This document shows, piece after piece, positions 15,144 through 17,888 of a DNA stretch of 64,000 nt. This DNA is from Aeromicrobium sp. Root495 (GTDB lineage Bacteria; Actinomycetota; Actinomycetes; Propionibacteriales; Nocardioidaceae), in the NCBI RefSeq assembly GCF_001426755.1, contig NZ_LMFJ01000001.1, positions 1,111,846 through 1,175,845 of the forward strand, given 5' to 3'. Position 1 is the stretch's first letter; each line of letters starts with the position of its first letter. The translations under genes were made by a program, and so were the position numbers. A model generated the notes under the pieces. The model was not told where the DNA came from, ran no database searches, and saw only the letters and a list, made by a program, of their open reading frames with translations.

Positions 15144-16115
15144 GTGATCAAGGACGTGAAGAACATCGCCGTCGTCGTGCAGGACGGCGCCGAGCCCTTC
15201 GGCCTCGGCGCCATCTGTGAGGTGTGGGCGGAGCCGTTCCATCCCGAGGACGAGAACCCGGTCTTCGACGTGACCGTGTGCACGCCCGAGCCGGGGAGGG
15301 TCCGGGGCGCCTCGGGCTTCGACCTCCACGTCGAGCACGGGCTCGAGGCGCTCGAGCGCGCCGACCTCGTGTGCATCGCACCCAAGCGGGAGTACCGCAC
15401 CCACCACCCGGCCGCCGTCGAGGCCGTGGGCGCCGCGGGACGGCGCGGCGCCTGGGTCTCGGCGCACTGCACCGGGTCGTGGCTCCTGGGCGAGGCGGGG
15501 CTGCTCGACGGCCGACGCTGCACCACGCACTGGCGCTACGGCGCGGAGCTCCAGGCTGCCTTCCCCGAGGCCACCGTCGATGCTGACGTCCTCTACGTGC
15601 TCGACCAGAACATCCTCACGGGCGCGGGCTCGACGGCCGGTCTGGACGCGTCGCTGCACCTCATGCGTCAGCTCTACGGATCCAAGGTCGCGGCCACGGC
15701 GGCCCGCCGGATCGTCATGCCGCCGCACCGCGACGGCGGGCAGGCACAGTACGTGCGCACGCCCGTCGGCGAGGTGGAGGCCGAGACGCTCGCCCCCCTC
15801 CTGGAGTGGGTGCTCGTGCACCTCGACGAGCCCATGCCCGTGGAGCGGCTCGCCCGCGAGGCGCACATGTCGGCCCGCACCTTCGCGCGTCGTTTTCGTG
15901 ACGAGACCGGGACCACGCCGCTGCAGTGGGTCACCGGGCAGCGGGTGGCGCTGGCCGAGGAGCTGCTCGAGACGTCGACCCTGTCGGTGGAGCAGATCGC
16001 GACGCGGGTCGGGTTCGGCAACGCGGCCACCCTGCGCCACCACTTCGGCGCCGCGCGCGGCATCACCCCGCAGGCCTACCGCAAGACCTTCGGCCTCCAG
16101 GAGGTCGTGGCCTGA
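15144..16115 (+). CDS. GlxA/FtrA-like AraC-family transcriptional regulator
   Basis: The 323-residue protein joins an N-terminal DJ-1/PfpI (class I amidotransferase-like) domain to a C-terminal AraC DNA-binding domain. The first domain has the nucleophile-elbow segment SAHCTGSWLLGEAGLLDGR near residue 108. The second, from about 220, has two helix-turn-helix units (VERLAREAHMSARTFARRF and SVEQIATRVGFGNAATLRHHF). Such proteins control amino acid or quaternary amine metabolism in other bacteria, but the ligand here is unknown. The GTG start at 15144 lies six bases after CAGGCT. It is divergent from a small membrane protein gene, a possible target. Confidence 0.9.
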   Translation: MIKDVKNIAVVVQDGAEPFGLGAICEVWAEPFHPEDENPVFDVTVCTPEPGRVRGASGFDLHVEHGLEALERADLVCIAPKREYRTHHPAAVEAVGAAGRRGAWVSAHCTGSWLLGEAGLLDGRRCTTHWRYGAELQAAFPEATVDADVLYVLDQNILTGAGSTAGLDASLHLMRQLYGSKVAATAARRIVMPPHRDGGQAQYVRTPVGEVEAETLAPLLEWVLVHLDEPMPVERLAREAHMSARTFARRFRDETGTTPLQWVTGQRVALAEELLETSTLSVEQIATRVGFGNAATLRHHFGAARGITPQAYRKTFGLQEVVA

Positions 16116-16116
16116 C

Positions 16117-16406
16117 GGTGGGGCGGTGACCTGGCGTCCGTTCCGCGGGCCCGGCCCGTGGGGCGGTGACTTGGCGTCCGTTCCACCGGGCCGGGCCGGT
16201 GGGGCGGTGACTTGGCGTCCGTTCCACCGGGCCGGGCCGGTGGGGCGGTGCCGTGGCGTCCGTTCAGGCGCACATTGAGGCTCGGAACGGACGCCAGCTC
16301 ACCGCCGCCACGGCGCTGGGCGCATCGGCGCCCGGGACGGACGCCAAGTCACCGCCGCCACGGCGCTGGGCGTATCGGCGCTCGGGACGGACGCCAGCTC
16401 ACCGCC
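16117..16406. repeat. two convergent arrays of a shared 22-bp motif with hairpin linkers
   Basis: This fills the 315-base gap between the convergent regulator and acyl-CoA synthetase genes. Four plus-strand units at 16117, 16158, 16198 and 16239 (40-41 bp period) contain GGCGGTGACTTGGCGTCCGT or close variants. Three minus-strand units at 16284-16306, 16334-16356 and 16384-16406 (50-bp period) carry the complement. Plus linkers pair as CCACCGG/CCGGTGG; minus linkers pair as GGGCGC/GCGCCC or, with wobble pairs, GGGCGT/GCGCTC. Each convergent gene is thus followed by copies in its own direction. No coding function is apparent. Confidence 0.9.
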
Positions 16407-16430
16407 GTGGCGGTTGCGACGGCGCGGGAG

Positions 16431-17756
16431 CTAGGCCAGCTCGGTGCGACGCACCTTGCCGGTGGCGGTGCGGGGGAGTGCGTCGAGTCGCTCGTACTCC
16501 TTGGGTCGCTTGGGAGGCGCGAGCCGCTCGACAGCCAGCGCGCGCAGGGCGTCCTCGTCGACCTCGCCCACGTACGCAGCGCACACCCGCTGGCCCCAGC
16601 GCTCGTCCGGACGGCCGAAGACGGCCAGGTCGAGCAGGCCGGGAACGTCGGCCAGGGCGTCCTCCACCTCGGCGGGGTAGACGTTGACACCGCCGCTGAT
16701 GATGAGGTCCGTCCGCCGCGCGTCCAGGTAGACGAGCCCCTTCTCGACCCGGCCCAGGTCGCCCACCGTGAACGCCGGTCCGTCCGGAGTGTCCTTCCAG
16801 GCGGCTGCCGTCTTCTCGGGGTCACGCCAGTACTCGAAGCGCGCCCACTCAGGCACCGAGCACCACAGCTGGTCGTCCGCGTCAGTGGTGATGGTCCGGT
16901 GGGGACGGGCCGCGCCCAGCGTGCCGGGGCTCGCCTGCCACACCGGCGCCGGGCAGGCGGTCCACTGGCCCTCGGTGGAGCCGTAGAACTCCCACACGAC
17001 GTCGGTCCCGAACAGCTCGTGGGCCCTTCGGCGGACCGGCTCGGGGCAGGGCGCCCCCGCATGGGCGACGAGCCGGAACGACGAGACGTCGGGCTGCTCC
17101 CCGGTCTCGTCGAGGTGCTGGAAGAGCCGTTGCAGGTGTGCCGGAACGCAGAACATCGACGTGGGGCGCAGGGGCAGTGCGGCGAGGAGGCCCTGCGGCG
17201 AGAAGGTCGGCAGGACCGCGATCGAGCCGCCCGCCAGCAAGGTGCCCATGGCGAAGCGCAGAGGGGCTGAGTGGTAGACCGGGGAGACCACGAGGTCGAG
17301 GTCGTCGGCGCGGAAGCCCCACAGCTCGCGCTCCTCGAGCGCGAGGACCGCGGAGTTCTCGTCGCTCAGCAGCCCGGACCAGACGCCCTTGGGCCGACCG
17401 GTGGTGCCCGACGTGAAGTGCATCGGCCGAGCACGCGGGAAGTCCGCCAGGTCGCCGTCAGCGGGACCGTCCGCAAGGGCGCGGAGCTCGTCCTCGTCGA
17501 GCACCTGCAGCGCCGGCTCGACGTCGGCGATGATCCCGTCGCGCTCCCACGGCGTGAGCCGCGGGTCCAGCGGCACGGGCACGACGCCGGACCGGAGCGC
17601 CCCGAGGACGACGCTCACGTAGGTGGGCGATCCTGCGACGCTGAGCGCGACACGGTCGCCGGTGCCGAGTCCGCGCCGAGCCAGCGACGCCGCGACGGCC
17701 CGCTGCTCGCGCTCGCTGGCCTCGGCCGTGAGGATGGTGGGGTGGATGGGGCTCAC
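16431..17756 (-). CDS. acyl-CoA synthetase, class I adenylate-forming family
   Basis: The 441-residue enzyme activates a carboxylic acid as an acyl-adenylate and then a thioester. It has the P-loop FTSGTTGRPKGV near residue 117, FYGSTEG near 260, the hinge segment with LVYLDARRTDLIISGGVNVYP near 345, and PRTATGKVRR with the catalytic C-terminal lysine. It is short for the family (usually about 500 residues), mostly by a compact N-terminus. The GTG at 17756 is favoured because two AGGAG motifs precede it, giving MSPIHPTIL. Substrate is not readable. It is convergent with the GlxA-like regulator across the repeat array. Confidence 0.87.
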   Translation of the reverse strand: MSPIHPTILTAEASEREQRAVAASLARRGLGTGDRVALSVAGSPTYVSVVLGALRSGVVPVPLDPRLTPWERDGIIADVEPALQVLDEDELRALADGPADGDLADFPRARPMHFTSGTTGRPKGVWSGLLSDENSAVLALEERELWGFRADDLDLVVSPVYHSAPLRFAMGTLLAGGSIAVLPTFSPQGLLAALPLRPTSMFCVPAHLQRLFQHLDETGEQPDVSSFRLVAHAGAPCPEPVRRRAHELFGTDVVWEFYGSTEGQWTACPAPVWQASPGTLGAARPHRTITTDADDQLWCSVPEWARFEYWRDPEKTAAAWKDTPDGPAFTVGDLGRVEKGLVYLDARRTDLIISGGVNVYPAEVEDALADVPGLLDLAVFGRPDERWGQRVCAAYVGEVDEDALRALAVERLAPPKRPKEYERLDALPRTATGKVRRTELA

Positions 17757-17888
17757 GTGACTCCTGTGACTCCTGGGTGAGAGTTGGCTCACGATGAGTG
17801 CAGGTTCCGGGGCCGTCAACGTGATCCTCTCCGCGAAGTATGGTTCACTCGACGACGGACTGTTCCCGACCCCCGTAGGTGATCATCT

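Follow-up and report, generated by a model that had tools for sequence, protein, structure and literature searches.

A convergent gene junction of Aeromicrobium sp. Root495 (the home genome, G000) carries seven copies of a two-part 20-bp core, four on the plus and three on the minus strand, and this array belongs to a family of 127 core copies in that genome. Repeats at the 3' ends of bacterial genes are commonly attributed to RNA hairpins or selfish palindromes. The array family keeps two DNA blocks and a spacing class while the sequence in between drifts, also at orthologous places, and this points to a bound protein. Judging from sequence, we tentatively favor, at somewhat below an even chance, that the cores are bipartite sites bound by a predicted DNA-binding protein and that each array forms a boundary blocking readthrough between transcription units. 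If true, this would imply a DNA-binding factor whose specificity changes, and a mechanism, open to testing, by which a bacterium separates convergent genes.

The window array and its family in the home genome

The window is the whole 64-kb stretch (64,000 nucleotides) that was analyzed, and its coordinates are used in Table 1. The two head-to-head arrays and the convergent junction of the preliminary description were both confirmed. The 20-bp pattern, with up to three mismatches allowed, gives seven matches within the window, all of them inside the array, against 0.27 ± 0.60 in shuffles. Plus cores follow one another at steps of 40, 41 and 41 bp and minus cores at two steps of 50 bp, with a head-to-head step of 39 bp between the two groups. 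Genes were called by a simple codon-usage script trained on the fetched stretches; the start of the ligase-type gene is uncertain, the gene caller placing it at 17756.

Table 1. Array features and flanking genes, in window coordinates.
Feature	Position	Strand	Remarks
Upstream gene, AraC-family regulator	15144..16115	+	Top NCBIfam match FtrA, 320.7 bits, below cut-off 425
Core copy 1	16124..16143	+	CGGTGACCTGGCGTCCGTTC; starts 8 bp past the stop codon of the AraC-type gene
Core copy 2	16164..16183	+	
Core copy 3	16205..16224	+	
Plus-copy linkers, 20-21 bp	16144-16163, 16184-16204, 16225-16245 (in 16144..16245)		Palindromic in the window, not family-wide
Core copy 4	16246..16265	+	One mismatch (GGTGC); left arm of central dyad
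Central spacer, 19 bp	16266..16284	no strand	Between the two arms of the central dyad
Core copy 5	16285..16304	-	Right arm of central dyad
Minus-copy linkers, 30 bp	16305-16334, 16355-16384 (in 16305..16384)		
Core copy 6	16335..16354	-	50-bp step
Core copy 7	16385..16404	-	50-bp step; its end lies 26 bp ahead of the end of the ligase-type gene
Convergent gene, acyl-CoA synthetase / ligase family	16431..17819	-	No NCBIfam family shown reaches its cut-off

The genome-wide search that had been proposed for further cores found 76 + 51 = 127 copies with up to two mismatches in the home genome, against a single match of the reversed-pattern control. Among the matches listed, they form about 30 face-to-face arrays, mostly just 3' of genes. 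We fetched 29 stretches around the listed places (L078, with one weak lone copy, was left out) and counted, among the matches listed, 31 arrays with at least two copies, including that of the window. Plus copies lead and minus copies close in all 31. Of 32 head-to-head steps, 31 measure 39 bp and one, of 101 bp, crosses an assembly gap. Direct steps are 40-41 bp (60 times), 29-30 bp (five), 50 bp (two), 42 bp (two), 39 bp and 45 bp (once each), with four more across gaps. The step of 45 (L068) and steps of 19 and 22 (L061) are spurious matches; when direct steps are pooled they fall at 29-32, 39-42 and 50 bp, with outliers of 19, 22, 44 and 45 once each. Arrays hold two to nine copies, or ten if L061, which is two arrays in succession, is taken as one, and a same-direction run in L070 reaches seven copies with a single opposite partner. 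Assembly gaps (N runs) lie in or beside the arrays L050, L065, L066 and L073, so that some copy counts are lower bounds.

The central 19-bp spacer is constant in length in 31 of 32 pairs of the home genome, and its sequence likeness between arrays is weak (6.5 of 19 positions, against 5.7 when shuffled). Linkers of different arrays give 35 close pairs, compared with 6-22 in ten shuffles. We read this slight likeness of linkers and centers as a sign of some copying between places. Neighboring copies inside arrays of G000 differ at 16 of 649 block sites, 88 of 413 variable-core sites and 39 of 404 linker sites; as neighboring linkers are closer than the variable core positions, this may be the pattern left by young tandem duplication.

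Elsewhere, the exact core was found in 19 stretches of named genomes, with a single match each; two of these are Aeromicrobium records and the other 17 are taken as chance. It also occurs once each in two viral contigs. A plasmid or phage origin of the arrays was rejected, the plasmid and the phage collections having both given no match. A scan of 20 of the 341 neighbor proteins (11 from G000 and 9 from G057) revealed no repeated DNA-binding gene; the neighbors scanned included nitroreductase, catalase, a TetR regulator, ispH, qcrB, aspA and gamma-glutamyltransferase.

Core architecture and position at gene ends

The core follows the plan GGTG-N5-GCGTCC, two blocks with a variable spacer. Over 130 copies (those of 140 units with at most one mismatch and no N), GGTG, GCGTCC and a T at position 18 are almost invariant, and positions 7-10 and 19-20 vary; since the search pattern itself asked for the blocks, this invariance alone is no proof. 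The block centers lie ten bases apart, which would fit two adjacent major-groove faces. Single units are not palindromic, their best self-pairing being 4.52 vs 4.42 shuffled in G000, 4.33 vs 4.30 in G039 and 4.52 vs 4.48 in G009, and unit folding gives z of +0.05 to +0.65.

It had been suggested that linkers kept their pairing through compensating wobble changes, as under selection on RNA or single-stranded DNA. Those pairings do occur in the window but do not extend to the family: the folding of 30 representative linkers does not exceed that of mononucleotide shuffles (linker mean z +0.18; -1.15 for the window's own), which rules out linker hairpins as a family rule. The 31 central 19-mers likewise fold like shuffles (mean z -0.20). 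We also compared the arms of 80 central dyads from G000, G039 and G009 with shuffled arms. Matching at positions 6-10 was not above shuffled (0.427 vs 0.497, 0.565 vs 0.506 and 0.461 vs 0.471), and G-U was not clearly commoner than A-C in these dyads. Positions 19-20 in G000 did match above shuffled (0.683 vs 0.515, p 0.005), and three of 24 single columns had z above 2 (position 19 in G000, 10 in G039 and 8 in G009). With no overall arm covariation and with linkers folding like shuffles, selection on RNA or single-stranded DNA is unsupported, as is the central dyad as an RNA stem. An intrinsic terminator was also rejected: the search for a U-tract terminator gave 0 matches in 15900-16600. The best Rfam match (E 0.036) reached 25.3 bits where the gathering score is 97. 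Three features point to double-stranded DNA: the intervals of about 10 bp between spacing classes, the two constant blocks set one turn apart, and the long same-direction runs that face just one opposite copy. Among the three roles offered before, namely stabilizing 3' ends, stopping transcription and binding a protein, the last fits best.

Across 88 arrays of G000, G039, G009 and G057, 42 are convergent, 40 codirectional, 4 divergent and 2 unclassified, compared with 71 convergent, 299 codirectional and 104 divergent array-free junctions in the same stretches (convergent enrichment, p 4e-11). Gene 3' ends are thus the site of 82 of the 86 classified arrays, and of 8 of the ten seen in G048 (3 convergent, 5 codirectional and 2 divergent). 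The first core lies a median of 19 nt from the stop codon in G000 (n=45), 12 in G039 (n=26), 18.5 in G009 (n=52) and 19 in G057 (n=3). At seven places (L053, L058, L070, L077, L080, L093 and L120) the predicted gene ends 6 bp inside the first core, the neighboring gene apparently using the TGA within the core as its stop codon.

Eighteen gene ends leave 45-140 nt before the array, and at least nine of them have a terminator-like hairpin in between (at least nine pairs, judged by eye from folds; L061, L063, L068, L079, L085, L094, L109, L112 and the right side of L209). The array thus sits beyond the gene, or beyond its terminator, without having to be the terminator itself. In several relatives a terminator-like hairpin likewise follows qcrB ahead of other repeats. 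At L211, L214 and L215 (G043, G046 and G008) these form an array of GGACGTCATCACATCAGTACC and its relatives with their complement, after the hairpin, and the 3' side of qcrB at L223 (G019) carries a further array on GACGATGATGC... / GCATCATCC.

Polarity was followed in the codirectional arrays. The majority of copies runs with the upstream gene in 23, against it in 7 and is tied in 10 (p 0.005). This bias is absent from G000 alone (7 with, 5 against, 2 tied); in G048, by eye, 3 run with, 1 against and 1 is tied.

Distribution, gain and retention among relatives

Aeromicrobium belongs to the family Nocardioidaceae and the order Propionibacteriales. Among 391 genomes of that order, five hold at least five copies of the exact core (CGGTGANNNNGCGTCCGTYY), namely G000, G009, G039, G048 and G057; on the AraC gene tree these occupy, by eye, three separate positions. 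In G039 the head-to-head center is 29 bp in 17 of 17 arrays, 16 of which have exactly three copies, at steps of 31 and 29. Among the matches listed, G009 has centers of 28-29 in 32 of 35 cases and direct steps of 31-32 in 39 of 40, and G048 centers of 28-29 in 7 of 9 and direct steps of 31 in 8 of 8. The home genome is thus longer than these relatives by about one helical turn in both step classes. Arrays running in one direction only occur in G009 and G048 (L097, L105, L126 and L209); stretches of relatives without a cluster of at least two copies (L082, L084, L100, L114, L119 and L201) count as having no array.

The AraC/ligase junction was examined at 33 AraC loci. The gap to the convergent ligase gene is -4 to 121 bp in 14 relatives, about 1 kb in six, and 272 and 282 bp in G051 and G005, which have another repeat there; seven loci show no ligase, and in three (G006, G044 and G041) the stop was mis-traced, G044 having a gap of 6 bp in another trace. 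The junction with its array in G000 is longer than in most relatives with a traced AraC/ligase junction. In the nearest relative compared (G015, 82% identity) the two stop codons overlap, whereas G000 has 315 bp and the array; the window array was therefore likely gained. Similarly, the aspA junction measures 18 bp in the nearest relative and 241 bp in G000. Comparison by eye of the window junction with the relative at about 82% identity shows a possible 2-bp repeat only, and the arms are inverted.

Few array places are common to G000 and the G009/G039 group. Within the group, G009 has an array at the corresponding junction for 6 of the 10 arrays seen in G048. Nine orthologous pairs were matched on both sides, and the seven with equal copy order were scored (L102/L204 and L105/L200 were left out; a single G009 array enters two of the seven). 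In these comparisons identity is 219/231 in blocks, a figure biased upward as the arrays were located by their blocks, 58/105 in N5, 52/84 in the other core positions, 78/141 in linkers (gapped) and 73/140 in flanks.

Arrays of like build were also seen, by eye, at orthologous junctions of other Aeromicrobium. They keep GGCGGTG, or a near form, with another right block: GCGTCCA in G008 and G043, GCGACC in G046, GACACC in G003, GTCAACC in G022, and GCAACC in G013, where the left block is GGCGGTA or GGCGGTG. Of 49 genomes of the genus, 25 carry the generic dyad GGCGGTG-N36..40-CACCGCC at eight or more places, some of the listed places looking like chance; its control never exceeds five. A narrower dyad (N38-39) was scanned in the 391 genomes of the order. 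It was tallied at 316 places (control 11) in 32 Aeromicrobium, at 659 (control 81) in 119 genomes of a second genus of the family, g9, of which 29 have at least eight, and at 66 (control 26) in 38 genomes of g3, from another family. Within 91 kb read from one g9 genome there is a single dyad, GGCGGTGAGTGAGCCACGATC, between divergent genes. In six genomes of other lineages 23 dyads were read, and 12 of these have no flanking copy; the flanking copies of the others lie at 31 bp six times (G008, G043 and G007), and otherwise at 26, 29, 32, 37, 38 and 39 bp.

One GCGACC-type dyad lies inside a predicted gene (L280 in G043, 1564-1616). Near-identical GGCGGTGGATCTGCCACCT dyads occur at L284-L286 in G005, where a 588-bp stretch common to L284 and L285 is 85.5% identical; these are possibly a mobile element carrying this dyad type. 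A second dyad family, with right arm GGTGAGYGNGGGAGAACCATGG and tail-to-tail orientation, is found at L138 and L166-L194, mainly in G051, G005, G018 and G056. Its step is 38 bp in 9 of 9 pairs with up to three mismatches in both arms, its copies having been retained partly on account of that step. Ten of its contexts are convergent, 11 codirectional and one divergent, and it is the repeat at the AraC/ligase junction of G051 and G005.

A proposed protein-bound boundary, its rivals and known systems

The predicted protein would read GGTG-N5-GCGTCC as DNA, on two major-groove faces one turn apart, at repeated sites whose spacing classes differ by about one helical turn, inverted about a center and placed mostly just past gene 3' ends. 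The lineage-specific right block would track a changing binding domain, and the bound array would stop or slow RNA polymerase, marking the ends of transcription units. Copy number, plus-then-minus order and the spacing classes of about 28-32, 39-42 and 50 bp are observed; protein binding, two-face reading, the changing domain and the polymerase block are what we infer. Near-constant blocks, free spacers, helical spacing classes and orthologous retention are together what would be expected of a protein-site array under selection. Unshared places in distant species, the G005 copies and the likeness of linkers show that relocation or new formation of such elements occurs as well. Against a boundary speak the dyads of other lineages that stand alone, the sole g9 dyad between divergent genes and the missing polarity bias in G000. 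Moreover, with a hairpin already present at half or more of the roomy gene ends, a blocking role would often be redundant, and the patchy distribution of the exact core is not what an essential role predicts. A boundary system of the Nocardioidaceae as a whole, with a dedicated protein that has one conserved and one fast-changing DNA-reading part and hence lineage-specific right blocks, seems unlikely; we give it less weight because of the divergent g9 dyad and the 12 solitary dyads.

The main rival to protein-bound boundary arrays is that the arrays are non-autonomous mobile elements, in which the core would be a putative transposase site with GGCGGTG as tip and the lineage-specific block as inner part. 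Insertion-sequence terminal inverted repeats are built in this way, from a tip and a transposase-specific inner part. Mobile elements would pile up after stop codons as the least harmful place, and they would account for junctions that are short or overlapping in the nearest relative and long in G000, for the patchy distribution with few places common to distant species, for linkers and centers slightly more alike than shuffles, and for the near-identical G005 dyads. We still regard this as somewhat unlikely, given blocks kept at orthologous places while linkers drift (with the upward bias mentioned), copy numbers that change by whole units, the one junction inspected, which had no target-site duplication beyond the possible 2 bp, and the search for Y1_Tnp/RAYT (PF01797), which had no match in any of the 12 genomes searched (controls match in 5 of 14).

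Two further explanations seem weaker. The arrays might be landing sites for gyrase or a nucleoid-associated protein, relieving supercoils at convergent transcription in a BIME-like manner. Enriched convergent contexts, spacing classes about a turn apart, arrays lying beyond a terminator-like hairpin and the targeting of E. coli REPs by gyrase, as stated in the Discussion of Di Nocera et al. (2013, PMC3733652), are in its favor. It is nevertheless quite improbable: 44 of the 86 arrays with a classified context lie elsewhere than between convergent genes, and a ten-base-specific site with a lineage-changing half seems unlike the preference of gyrase. That the arrays act as RNA, as 3' untranslated hairpins that stop transcription or protect the transcript, we hold to be highly improbable. 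Their inverted arms could pair, 12-19 nt past the stop codon would suit a terminator, and the excess matching at positions 19-20 in G000 and in three single columns agrees with pairing. This is countered by the absence of overall covariation and of a clear G-U over A-C excess in the 80 dyads, by linkers that fold like shuffles, by units that are not palindromic, by the seven same-direction copies with a single partner in L070, by spacing in classes, by the lack of a U-tract terminator in 15900-16600 and by the separate hairpin ahead of the array at many roomy ends.

Protein-bound boundary arrays can be set beside several known systems. Multi-site transposon ends (Tn7-, Mu- or IR/DR-like) have sites of about 20 bp, several in direct order per side and inverted across the center. 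The arrays resemble miniature inverted-repeat elements in site order, shared tip and family-specific inner block, but differ in having an interior of only about 9 or 19 bp, no recognized transposase, no clear target duplication and a varying number of units. Mycobacterial interspersed repetitive units and VNTRs are tandem repeats of variable number, in direct order only, in intergenic actinobacterial DNA; unit length and variable number are similar in the arrays, which however run in both directions at a fixed center distance. The roadblock terminators of Reb1 and TTF-1 are repeated, directional protein sites past eukaryotic gene ends. The arrays are likewise repeated, directional and past gene ends, but they are bacterial, and their protein and termination are predicted only. 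We found no published account of intergenic or interspersed repeats in Aeromicrobium or Nocardioides or of REPs in Actinobacteria, and none tying helical phasing to convergent genes.

The closest likeness is to REP/BIME sequences (Di Nocera et al., 2013, PMC3733652). As portrayed there, REPs are species-specific and intergenic, sit 3' of genes and between convergent or codirectional ones, in many cases no more than 20 bp from the 3' end, frequently form head-to-head pairs and clusters, and differ in family between related species; CGTC REPs apparently lack a dedicated transposase, Y1_Tnp going with the GTAG type. A REP unit is a palindrome of 20-40 bp that forms a stem-loop. With REPs so described the arrays share their place at gene 3' ends, head-to-head pairs and lineage-specific families. 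We do not count them as REPs: their units are not palindromic and have no RAYT match, and they lack an unpaired terminal GTAG/CGTC tag, CGTC sitting, by eye, within the right block in some lineages and being replaced in others. Instead, their copies stand in phased direct arrays about one center, with blocks kept at orthologous places.
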